Origin: Verrucomicrobiota bacterium
GTDB lineage: Bacteria > Verrucomicrobiota > Verrucomicrobiia > Verrucomicrobiales > DEV007
Reading direction: 5' to 3'
DNA: 61,363 nt
Assembly: GCA_018970725.1 (NCBI GenBank)
Contig: JAGWVU010000029.1
Location: forward strand, 1 to 61,363
Shown: one piece after another, positions 28,116 to 31,096 of the stretch
Position numbering within the stretch: position 1 is the first letter of the stretch
Layout: every line of letters starts with the position of its first letter
The notes under the pieces: model-generated
What the model saw: the letters and a program-made list of their open reading frames with translations, nothing else
Databases searched by the model: none
Told to the model about the DNA's origin: nothing
Program-made: the position numbers and the translations under genes

Positions 28116-29336
28116 ATGGTGATGGCGCGCCCGAAGATCCATGTGGGACTTGAAATCGGCACCTCGAAAGTGGGGTTTGTCGTCTCGGAATCGCGCCCTG
28201 ACGGCGGGACGAAGAACCTGAGCTTCGGCCACAGCGTTTCCCGCGGGGTCCGCAAAGGGGAGATCGTGGATGCGGAAGCCGTCAAGCAGAGCCTCCGTGA
28301 AGCCTTGGACAAAATCGAGGCGGAATCCGGGCACGAGATTTCCGAAGTCTATCTGGCGGTCTCCGGAGGCCACATCGCGGGCGTCAATGTGAGCACGAGC
28401 GTGGAGATTCCCACGCCCCCCGGTCAAGTGGAACTGGTGGACATCGAGGACCTGCACGACGAGGCCCGTCGGATCACCCTCCCGCCGGACCATGCGCTGA
28501 TTCACACCATCCCGAATCAACTCCGGCTGGATGGACGGGTGGAACTGAATCCGGTGGGACAGTTCGGAAAACTGCTCGAGGGAGACTTTCACATCGTTCA
28601 CGGGGACCGGAACCGGACCCAAAAAGCGATCCAGTGCGTGCAACAGCTCTCGTTGGGCGTGGCGGACATCGTGTTCTCCCCGATCGCAGCCGCTCACGTG
28701 GCCCTGAGCGAGGAGCAGAAAAGGGAGGGAGTGGTGCTGATCGACCTGGGCGGTGGCACGACGGATTTCCTGCTCTACGCGCATGGCCAGCTGGTGGTGT
28801 CGGGATCGATCCCGTTGGGGGGGGAACACATCACGAACGACATCGCCCTCGTGTTGGAAATGCCGTTGCAGGCCGCGGAACAGTGTAAGTCCCGCGAAGG
28901 CTCGGTCTACTTTGATTCCAAATTGGAAACCCGTCCCAAACTGTTGCGGGAGGTGCGCGGATTGGAGAACCGGGAGATTGATTGCAACAAGCTCAACGAG
29001 GTGATCCACTGGCGCGCCTGGGAGATGTTGGGATTGGTCAAGCAGAGGCTGGAAGCCACGGGCAGGTTGTCGCAGGCCAAGGCGGGGCTGGTTCTGACCG
29101 GAGGCGGCAGCCTCTTGACTGGAATCGCGGAACTGGCGGGCCGGACCTTCGGCCTGCGGGTGATCGGAGCGCCCGAAGTGCCGAAAAACGGGACCCGCCC
29201 GGGTGGTTACCTGCCTCAATTCTCCACTTTGCTCGGCCTGGTCCGCTATGCCCAGATCCGCGAGCTGAAGGAGCAGCCGAAGAAGGGGGCGATGTCTTTG
29301 GGAGAGAGAATCGTCGGCTGGCTGGGAGTTTCCTGA
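28116..29336 (+). CDS. ftsA: cell division protein FtsA
   Basis: A 406-residue actin-fold protein that tethers FtsZ to the membrane. Phosphate-1 (GLEIGTSKVGFVV), phosphate-2 (VLIDLGGGTTDFLLY) and adenosine (LVLTGGGSLLTGIAELA) motifs are present. The 1C subdomain is present (LPPDHALIHTIPNQLRLDGR...GDFHIVHG). The C-terminus SLGERIVGWLGVS is an amphipathic membrane-targeting helix like that of E. coli FtsA. The ATG at 28116 is favoured; another lies 6 bp further on. The ftsZ gene follows 44 bp downstream, as in most division clusters. Confidence 0.92.
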   Translation: MVMARPKIHVGLEIGTSKVGFVVSESRPDGGTKNLSFGHSVSRGVRKGEIVDAEAVKQSLREALDKIEAESGHEISEVYLAVSGGHIAGVNVSTSVEIPTPPGQVELVDIEDLHDEARRITLPPDHALIHTIPNQLRLDGRVELNPVGQFGKLLEGDFHIVHGDRNRTQKAIQCVQQLSLGVADIVFSPIAAAHVALSEEQKREGVVLIDLGGGTTDFLLYAHGQLVVSGSIPLGGEHITNDIALVLEMPLQAAEQCKSREGSVYFDSKLETRPKLLREVRGLENREIDCNKLNEVIHWRAWEMLGLVKQRLEATGRLSQAKAGLVLTGGGSLLTGIAELAGRTFGLRVIGAPEVPKNGTRPGGYLPQFSTLLGLVRYAQIRELKEQPKKGAMSLGERIVGWLGVS

Positions 29337-29380: not shown

Positions 29381-31096
29381 ATGGAGTTTCATCGCAAGGC
29401 CGGGGAGATCTCCGCACTCACCACAAAGCATCCCAAAATCCTCGTGGCCGGGCTCGGAGCGGCCGGGGCCAACATCCTGCGGCGCATCGTCATGGACGGG
29501 GGTAACCCGGATTCCCTGATCTGCATCGACACGGATCTGGGGACCCTGAACTCCTGCGCCGCGCCGCGGCGGGTGCAGATCGGCCGGAACCTGACCCGGG
29601 GGCTCACGGCCGGGGGGGACCCTGACTTGGGACGCGAAGCCGCGCAGGAAAGCGAGCAGGAAATCCGGCAGGCGTTCCGCGGGGTGGACCTCGTCTTCCT
29701 GTGCACCGGTCTCGGGGGAGGCACCGCATCGGGAGCTTCCCCGGTGATCGCCCGTCTCGCCCGGGAGGAAGGATGCTTCGTCCTCGTTTTCGTCACCCTG
29801 CCCTTTCATTTCGAAGGACGGCGGCGTCAGGCGCAGGCCCGCGAGGCCCTGGCCCAGCTGAAGCCCTTTGCGGGTGCCCTGCTAACCTTTGAAAACGACC
29901 GGATGGGGCAGTTGATCGTCCCCACGGAAGGCGTCCAAAAAGCCTTCGCGGTGGCGGACGCGACCATTTGCCACAGCATCCGCGCGATCACCGCGATGTT
30001 GGAGAAACCCGGGATGATCCGCCTGGAGCTCGCCCAGTTGTTGGAAGTGCTCAATGGCCAGGACGCCCGTTGTCTCTTCGGTTTTGGAAAGGCCACCGGT
30101 CCCGACCGCGCGCCCCTCGCGGTCAAGGTGGCCTTGGAAAATCCCCTGCTCCACGAAGGAGATCTGGTCTCCTCCGCCTCGACGATCCTCGTTCATATCT
30201 CCGGAAACCGGAGCGTCACCTTTGCCGAAGCCGAGCAGGTGATGACCGAGATTTCCTCGCAGGTCCATCCTTCGACCAAACTTTCCTACGGCGTTTCCGC
30301 CAGCGAGGAGATCGGAGAAGAATTGTGGGTGGCCATCATCAGCTCCGTGAGCCGGACCCAAGCGGCCCCAGTCGTGACCCAACGTGTCGCGGAACCGGCT
30401 CCGATCCCGCCCGCCTCCGTCTCCGCCCCTTCGCCGGAACCACTCACCCCGTTCCCGGTGGCGGCCCCGGAGAACGTTGTTCCCCTGGCACCACTGTCAG
30501 CGGAGGAAGCCCCCGCCCTGGTTCAACCCGGCCCCCTCAAGCCGCGGCTCAAGCCGCCCTTGCCGCTGCCTCCCGCTCCAGCTCCCATTCCCAACAAACC
30601 GCCACCGGTGGCGCGCCGGCTCATCGACACAGAGCATCTCGACGTCCCGCCCTCCCCGGCCCCCAAGCCTCCGGCCACTCCCGCTCCGGAACCGCCGGCT
30701 CCGGTCCGCCCGGTGCAGACTCCGGGCGTGCAGATCGAATACACCCCGAACGGCAACGGGGGCCATGGAATGCTCGGCGGCACGATCACGTTGGAACCTC
30801 CGGCGCCCTCCTTTCTCAACCGGGAGGGGGCGCAGCAGCCACCAACGCCGATCACCGGCATCCCCCCGGCTTCCGGTGGAGTGGAGAACGGACGGCCCCA
30901 GGCCCATGGAAACGGCAACGGAAATGGTCACGGCAACGGGAATGGTCACGGCAACGGGAATGGAACGCCCCCCCGGTCCTCCACCCCGTTGAGCCTGCGT
31001 CATCGGGGCCGGTTTGAAAATTGTGAACCGACCATCCTCGGCGGGCAGGACTTGGACATCCCCACTTACCTGCGCATGCCGCCCCGTCCCGAGTGA
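29381..31096 (+). CDS. ftsZ: divergent cell division protein FtsZ
   Basis: A 571-residue tubulin-like GTPase that forms the division ring. The GTP-binding half is well kept: T1 GLGAAGAN (24-31), LTRGLTAGGDPDLG, PFHFEGRRR and ENDR. The tubulin signature is GGGTASG (112-118) in place of GGGTGTG/S. In the T7 loop the catalytic pattern N-x-D-x-x-D is replaced by Arg214, Glu216 and Gln219 (GMIRLELAQLL). After about residue 330 comes a long Pro-rich linker and a Gly-Asn/His repeat. The last residues DLDIPTYLRMPPRPE match the conserved C-terminal peptide that binds FtsA. Such a protein may bind GTP but hydrolyse it poorly. Its neighbour ftsA supports a true division role. Confidence 0.9.
   Translation: MEFHRKAGEISALTTKHPKILVAGLGAAGANILRRIVMDGGNPDSLICIDTDLGTLNSCAAPRRVQIGRNLTRGLTAGGDPDLGREAAQESEQEIRQAFRGVDLVFLCTGLGGGTASGASPVIARLAREEGCFVLVFVTLPFHFEGRRRQAQAREALAQLKPFAGALLTFENDRMGQLIVPTEGVQKAFAVADATICHSIRAITAMLEKPGMIRLELAQLLEVLNGQDARCLFGFGKATGPDRAPLAVKVALENPLLHEGDLVSSASTILVHISGNRSVTFAEAEQVMTEISSQVHPSTKLSYGVSASEEIGEELWVAIISSVSRTQAAPVVTQRVAEPAPIPPASVSAPSPEPLTPFPVAAPENVVPLAPLSAEEAPALVQPGPLKPRLKPPLPLPPAPAPIPNKPPPVARRLIDTEHLDVPPSPAPKPPATPAPEPPAPVRPVQTPGVQIEYTPNGNGGHGMLGGTITLEPPAPSFLNREGAQQPPTPITGIPPASGGVENGRPQAHGNGNGNGHGNGNGHGNGNGTPPRSSTPLSLRHRGRFENCEPTILGGQDLDIPTYLRMPPRPE
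30908..30961 (+). repeat. three 18-bp tandem repeats inside ftsZ
   Basis: Three tandem 18-bp units at 30908, 30926 and 30944. The last two are identical (GGTCACGGCAACGGGAAT) and the first differs at four positions. They encode Gly-(Asn/His)-Gly-Asn-Gly-Asn units in the FtsZ linker. Such repeats can change copy number by slippage and so alter linker length. Confidence 0.85.

Follow-up and report, generated by a model that had tools for sequence, protein, structure and literature searches.

A division FtsZ with a rewritten T7 loop, and T7 variation across Verrucomicrobiota

FtsZ has been studied in a few model bacteria, and Planctomycetota and Chlamydiota, which belong to the same superphylum as Verrucomicrobiota, divide without it. 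In model bacteria N208, D210 and D213 of the T7 loop (S. aureus numbering, Sa, as throughout) are treated as conserved and each as needed (PMC8936486; here and below, the available part of that article). By swinging, D210 brings the attacking water into place in S. aureus filaments, and D213 and G72 shape the surroundings of that water; N208 binds K+ and touches D46 and Q48 of the neighbouring subunit, while R143 is arginine-finger-like. Each of N208L, D210N and D213N blocks assembly (PMC8936486). According to the accessible sections of three further articles, E. coli D212A hydrolyses GTP slowly, yet forms filament rings when wild-type FtsZ is present in the cell as well (PMC4383033), E. coli D212G allows division only in suppressor strains (PMC5405962), and B. 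subtilis cells expressing D213A beside the wild type still constrict (PMC8079713). Judging from D212A and D213A, slow hydrolysis is compatible with ring formation. No report of T7 loss in Verrucomicrobiota was found in the open-licence literature; the verrucomicrobial ftsZ work of Pilhofer and colleagues (2007, 2008) reportedly may mention such residues. Verrucomicrobial FtsZ are described, in the excerpts available, as among the most divergent (PMC9871819), with eight changes at otherwise fixed positions in Verrucomicrobium spinosum, for which the accessible text does not name T7 (PMC1845146), and ftsZ is essential in that species, for which targeted mutagenesis has been reported (PMC12283558).

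Here, we analysed an ftsZ gene in a window of 61,363 nucleotides (the whole stretch of DNA that was analysed) from a member of the Verrucomicrobiales. The gene (29381..31096, forward strand) encodes 571 aa followed by a stop, with a GTPase domain at about aa 15-325, a long Pro/Gly-rich linker and a C-terminal peptide. The protein belongs to the Tubulin/FtsZ superfamily, since it scores above the cut-offs of both PF00091 (120.5 bits, cut-off 33) and PF12327 (56.6 bits, cut-off 27). Its predicted structure, a monomer model with mean pLDDT 88.7 and pTM 0.87, has the FtsZ fold: it matches B. subtilis FtsZ (2rhj) with Z 43.7 and 1.8 A over 309 residues, and its best PDB matches are FtsZ chains (TM 0.90 to 1rlu_A). 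It is not a member of PF13809 (Tubulin_2), which matched none of three genomes of the genus (0/3, E <= 0.001). The NCBIfam equivalog TIGR00065 is missed (243.3 bits, cut-off 295.2), as it is by six of the eight other FtsZ scanned, most of them core fragments; five of these six are Verrucomicrobiota of the window's order or genus, with the third acid intact or not. Verrucomicrobium sp. (264.8 bits) and Prosthecobacter sp. (273.1) are among the misses, and sequences from Opitutaceae (306.3) and Anaerolineales (419.9) pass. Hence, we file the protein as a division FtsZ outside the strict limits of the equivalog.

Directly upstream, next door as the earlier note on this DNA had said, lies ftsA (28122..29336, forward strand; start assumed at the ATG of MARPKIHV), which scores 287 bits against TIGR01174 (cut-off 175.85) and is the sole FtsA over that cut-off in the genome. 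Two further marks named in that note are also in place, i.e. the NDR element FENDRM (29888-29905, forward strand), seen as sequence, and the FtsA-binding-type peptide DIPTYLR at the C terminus (31055..31075, forward strand, aa 559-565). The peptide reads DLPTFLR in the ortholog, and close forms such as DVPTFLR occur in the order; a strict pattern matches 77 of 135 tails, several of the misses showing close forms (DLPPFLR, DTPAYLR). Peptide and ftsA linkage together place the protein among FtsZ predicted to bind FtsA. That the gene is a genuine FtsA-linked division FtsZ, as the earlier note proposed, is the best reading of these sequence features.

The T7 loop, GMIRLELAQLL (30011..30043, forward strand, aa 211-221), does not follow the pattern N-x-D-x-x-D. 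It had been claimed that all three of its catalytic residues are replaced, and the alignment bears this out: GMIRLELAQLLEVL (window) aligns without gaps to GLINVDFADVKAVM and GLINLDFADVKTIM, from M. jannaschii and S. aureus FtsZ chains (the latter, 3wgj, is by its title a T7 chimera, with the same N/D/D), so that R214, E216 and Q219 (codons CGC, GAG and CAG) fall on Sa208, Sa210 and Sa213. By analogy with the S. aureus filament structures (PMC8936486), such a loop would be expected to hydrolyse GTP differently or slowly. The earlier note overlooked that, with Glu216, the position of the water-placing aspartate is occupied by an acid. It had also taken the GTP-site loops to be preserved, which holds in part. 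D46, G72 and R143 are kept, the last as R149, equivalent to the arginine-finger-like residue of S. aureus and among the constrained GTP-site residues. But each of T1 to T4 (all forward strand) carries a change: Ala at Sa21 in T1 (AGLGAAGAN, 29447..29473, aa 23-31), Gly54 at Sa48 in T2 (TDLGTLN, 29531..29551, aa 51-57), Thr76 instead of Gly at Sa70 in T3 (TAGGDP, 29606..29623, aa 76-81) and Ala at Sa110 in T4, where the tubulin signature GGGTG[ST]G has become GGGTASG (29714..29734, aa 112-118), a single change that the earlier note had rightly pointed out. Compared with 53 FtsZ of the order, the window protein and its ortholog share Sa48 R to G, Sa70 G to T, Sa110 G to A and Sa21 G to A; Sa110 is Ala in 3/3 proteins of the genus and Gly in 53/53 others of the order. 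Genus-specific changes do not clearly cluster in the GTP-site loops: with conservation thresholds of 0.8, 0.9 and 0.95, Fisher's test gives p 0.28, 0.17 and 0.040, so that two of the three fall short of significance, and we do not count the distribution as support. Covariation between Sa48 and T7 was considered and set aside, because the counts are confounded by ancestry; in Chthoniobacterales-type sequences, a G/D/D loop is often accompanied by Gln at Sa48.

An unusual active site in a single contig might be an artefact, i.e. a sequencing error, a chimera or a decaying pseudogene, and the genome of the window and that of its sister species are indeed draft assemblies (108 and about 210 contigs). 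But the frame is open, and R214, Q219, G54, T76 and A116 recur in the ortholog of a sister genome (G001), an independent assembly in which the domain is 86% identical; the shared R214 and Q219 exclude sequencing error as the cause. In the sister genome, too, ftsA lies upstream of ftsZ and HlyD and ABC-transporter genes lie on the other side. Between the two species the core has dN 0.079 and dS 1.64, a ratio of 0.048 that is rough since dS is near saturation; the linker (0.28) and ftsA (0.115) have higher ratios. Given the shared residues, the conserved synteny and a dN/dS of about 0.05, we reject the artefact, which is barely credible. In the window, the ftsA-ftsZ pair is flanked by a family 2 glycosyltransferase gene and HlyD/ABC/FtsX-type genes. 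The pair and murG are on different contigs. Among relatives, 14 have ftsZ and murG on a single contig at a distance of about 6-8 kb, and it seems that in the window's genus the pair has moved out of the customary cell-division gene cluster. Neither ftsZ nor an FtsA over the cut-off was found in another genome of the genus (G002, 81% complete), and no relatives of the window FtsZ were confirmed in viral contigs.

T7 varies widely among the verrucomicrobial FtsZ read. Our comparison comprised 258 rows, 240 of them distinct with controls included, four short pieces having been dropped. The 206 verrucomicrobial cores are a non-random sample, made of 80 sequences from among the best matches listed for a profile built on the window's order, and of loci from this and other searches; the controls are 29 Chloroflexota (one phylum) and five other non-verrucomicrobial loci, with E. 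coli and archaea outside the tally. The complete N-x-D-x-x-D is found in 14 of the 206 distinct verrucomicrobial cores (among the matches listed), in 29/29 Chloroflexota and in 5/5 of the other controls; such counts follow sequences, not evolutionary events. Position Sa208 is N in 86 cores, R in 53, K in 17, H in 15 and Q in 11, Sa210 is D in 71 and G in 122, and Sa213 is D in 124 and E in 33. Of the 206 cores, 46 have an acid at 210 alone, 131 at 213 alone, 26 at both sites and three at neither site; these three are the ortholog of the sister genome (R/G/D/Q), that genome's second FtsZ (K/G/Q/A) and a Chthoniobacteraceae sequence, L095 (H/G/A/Q). The last, with H/G/Q on the three T7 sites, apparently lost both acids separately. 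Other sites of the domain vary less: out of 206 cores, G20 and G108 are kept in 206, E139 and N166 in 205, D46 in 202, G72 in 200, T109 in 194, G110 in 192 and R143 in 184. More variable are D187 (171), G21 (167), N25 (150) and Q48 (63, with R in 110). From these sequences, the FtsZ active site looks rebuilt across the phylum. Among the matches listed, no FtsZ-profile match came from nine of the 240 Verrucomicrobiota genomes (G178, G136, G191, G194, G206, G217, G221, G234 and G254), each with a completeness of 90% or more, and further FtsZ loss or extreme divergence is possible there.

The patterns differ between lineages. In the window's order Sa210 is Gly in 53/53 sequences, Sa213 is acidic in 53/53 (D 42, E 11), Sa212 is Asp in 52/53 and Sa48 is Arg in 53/53, while N208 is kept in 11/53 and R found in 26/53. 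The three proteins of the window's genus have Q, Q and A at Sa213 and G, G and A at Sa48, and within the order the loss of the acid at Sa213 is specific to this genus. The Opitutales-type family (f9, assigned to Opitutaceae through loci so titled) shows N208 and D210 in 17/17 and an acid at Sa213 in 0/17; the third T7 site of such loci (e.g. L107, L114, L118, L152-L165) is Thr, Ala, Ser, Gly or Gln. So widespread a variation might mean that the T7 changes are compensated elsewhere and that the window protein has near-normal GTPase activity, with turnover as in model FtsZ. The 192 of 206 verrucomicrobial cores read without the full motif argue for this, as do the low dN/dS and, in the part of the source at hand, the description of the phylum as dividing by FtsZ-dependent binary fission, with an essential ftsZ in V. 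spinosum (PMC12283558). Yet in S. aureus and E. coli, single changes at these sites greatly impair activity or assembly (PMC8936486, PMC4383033, as excerpted), and the genus has given up even the acid otherwise kept throughout its order. We consider near-normal activity rather unlikely.

Some of the order of events can be proposed from a tree of 87 rows built with the T7 columns left out. All Gly-210 sequences sampled, window genus included, share one branch (SH-aLRT 99), which also holds a few sequences with Ser, Thr or Ala at that position. A second branch (SH-aLRT 100) holds the Opitutales-type rows. The fewest changes on this tree are six for N208, three for the acid at 210 and four for the acid at 213; the tree warns of long branches, and the deep position of the window genus is unsure. 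Branches and counts suggest that the change from D210 to Gly is old and that the genus lost the acid at 213 separately. In ancestors of the order, the water-positioning D210 would thus have become Gly and the K+-binding Asn at Sa208 mostly Arg, Lys, Gln or His, while the acid at Sa213 would have been retained and a new Asp acquired at Sa212. In the window's genus, Sa213 would then have become Gln and the facing T2 residue, Sa48, Gly. The window species would finally have gained Glu at Sa210, the sister species retaining Asp at Sa212; the sister codon GGA, against GAG in the window, suggests that a Gly gave rise to E216 on the line leading to the window species. Hence, the question whether R/E/Q is shared by the clade has a divided answer: the loss of N208 and D210 is older than the genus, but that of the acid at Sa213 is specific to it, and Glu216 stands in place of a Gly still present in the sister species.

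How might such a protein work? We propose that it is the working division FtsZ of its genome, anchored by the FtsA encoded beside it, and that it uses a rebuilt, probably slow, composite GTPase site with one relocated acid, a reading that we hold at even chances. It draws on what was observed, namely sequence, lineage pattern, constraint, a single detected copy, FtsA linkage and fold. Conserved binding residues and fold suggest that GTP binding and filament formation would be as usual. A composite active site would form where T7 enters the next subunit; there E216, the one relocated carboxylate, would position water in place of D210, and R214 would provide the positive charge that K+ gives in S. 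aureus. Compared with model bacteria, hydrolysis and filament turnover would be slowed. The essential ftsZ of V. spinosum, together with the R/G/D found on the three T7 sites of L080, an FtsZ of Verrucomicrobium sp., suggests by analogy that such loops may serve in division (V. spinosum's own loop lies outside the sequences read). Several results are at odds with the rebuilt site. E216 is no solution for the genus as a whole, since the sister ortholog lacks an acid at both 210 and 213; the binding residues N25, D187 and G21 vary in the phylum; the genus-specific changes show no clear enrichment in the GTP-site loops; the TIGR00065 cut-off is missed; and T7 has a middling pLDDT of about 76-79 in a model that is a monomer only. 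Since the S. aureus single mutants block assembly, the triple replacement might even abolish function, though a change from D to E is not the same as one from D to N. One might think of an FtsZ that forms GTP filaments without hydrolysis and is turned over by other proteins or by nucleotide-independent disassembly. The sister ortholog would fit, as would, from the partial texts cited above, the rings of E. coli D212A despite its slow hydrolysis and the constriction of B. subtilis with D213A, both beside wild-type protein, and the division of E. coli D212G, in suppressor strains only. But this is at odds with the continued constraint on GTP-site residues, R149 included, and with the acid that the window protein has at the key site 210; we find it unlikely.

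The sister genome encodes a second FtsZ (L032:7786-9765, i.e. G001:C97, with the same stretch in L040), 57% identical to the window FtsZ and fused to a MurG C-terminal domain. Its T7 loop, even further degenerated than that of the window protein, is acid-free and basic, with K/G/A on the N/D/D sites and K at Sa211; it has no C-terminal peptide and no ftsA beside its gene. The MurG domain scores 24.9 bits against PF04101 (cut-off 22), and the C-terminal part of the protein 47.5 bits against TIGR01133. The domain most resembles the MurG of the genus itself, at 43, 42 and 38% identity; for MurG elsewhere, identity is at most 31% in longer matches and 38% in one fragment of 74 residues at a contig edge. 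The domain is probably not an enzyme, because motifs common to 11 compared MurG are lost (GGSQGA has become GQGAQA and the DDHQ-type segment is absent). The record CAMCXS010000097.1 (L040) is titled Akkermansia muciniphila, but its genome has 6.5 Mb and its FtsZ groups with the window's genus, and the title looks wrong. The earlier note had suggested that the window protein may depend on a second FtsZ, which could complete its active site in the manner of alpha- and beta-tubulin. A basic, acid-free second copy in the sister genome with its MurG-like domain speaks for such a partner, and so does the T7 lysine of beta-tubulin, which blocks hydrolysis according to the available part of PMC13394414. 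The dependence is not borne out in the window's genome: searches with PF00091, a protein query, a profile and PF13809 found one Tubulin/FtsZ locus and neither a second FtsZ nor a Tubulin_2 match. At 96.5% completeness in 108 contigs, the assembly is unlikely to have missed a copy. Moreover, a copy like that of the sister genome, with neither C-terminal peptide nor ftsA neighbour, cannot supply a canonical T7. A partner FtsZ is therefore quite improbable. In the 87-row tree the second copy falls outside the pair formed by window protein and ortholog, which suggests that the window's species may have lost it.

The T7 pattern at the scale of the phylum is more interesting than the window case alone. 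One might speculate that Verrucomicrobiota have several differently built, K+-independent FtsZ GTPases and that one species has split the job with a MurG-linked, acid-free FtsZ, a view that we regard as doubtful. If true, division FtsZ would have abandoned the standard N-x-D-x-x-D site throughout the phylum, the window's genus having gone furthest, and lineages would retain roughly one carboxylate each, at either 210 or 213, with the K+-binding Asn often replaced by Arg or Lys; the acid-free FtsZ with its MurG-derived domain would tie the ring to the supply of cell-wall precursors. Natural, constrained FtsZ that lack one, two or three of these residues offer a direct test of the need for hydrolysis and treadmilling. 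They could show which of the acids is the chemically active one, and are relevant to the question of how division without FtsZ arose in Planctomycetota and Chlamydiota.

Compared with known systems, the window protein resembles alpha/beta tubulin in that T7 chemistry decides the cutting of the neighbour's GTP, with a basic residue in beta (PMC13394414, in the part available), but differs in that one FtsZ was detected in its genome and no heterodimer partner. With the FtsZ of S. aureus, B. subtilis and E. coli it shares the fold over about 309 residues, the GTP-binding signature, the FtsA linkage and the C-terminal peptide; it differs by R/E/Q for N208/D210/D213, by altered residues in T1, T2, T3 and T4, and by its TIGR00065 score (243 versus 295 bits). 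Like the Opitutales-type FtsZ (Opitutaceae and Opitutus titles) it has lost the acid at 213 (17/17 in f9), whereas these keep N208 and D210 (17/17), of which it has neither. The other FtsZ of Verrucomicrobiales and Chthoniobacterales (Verrucomicrobium, Prosthecobacter and Akkermansiaceae titles) share with it the loss of D210, to Gly, and a variable N208. Yet these keep Asp or Glu at 213 and usually Asp at 212, where the window's genus has Gln or Ala at 213, and the Arg at 48 of other FtsZ of the order is Gly or Ala in this genus.
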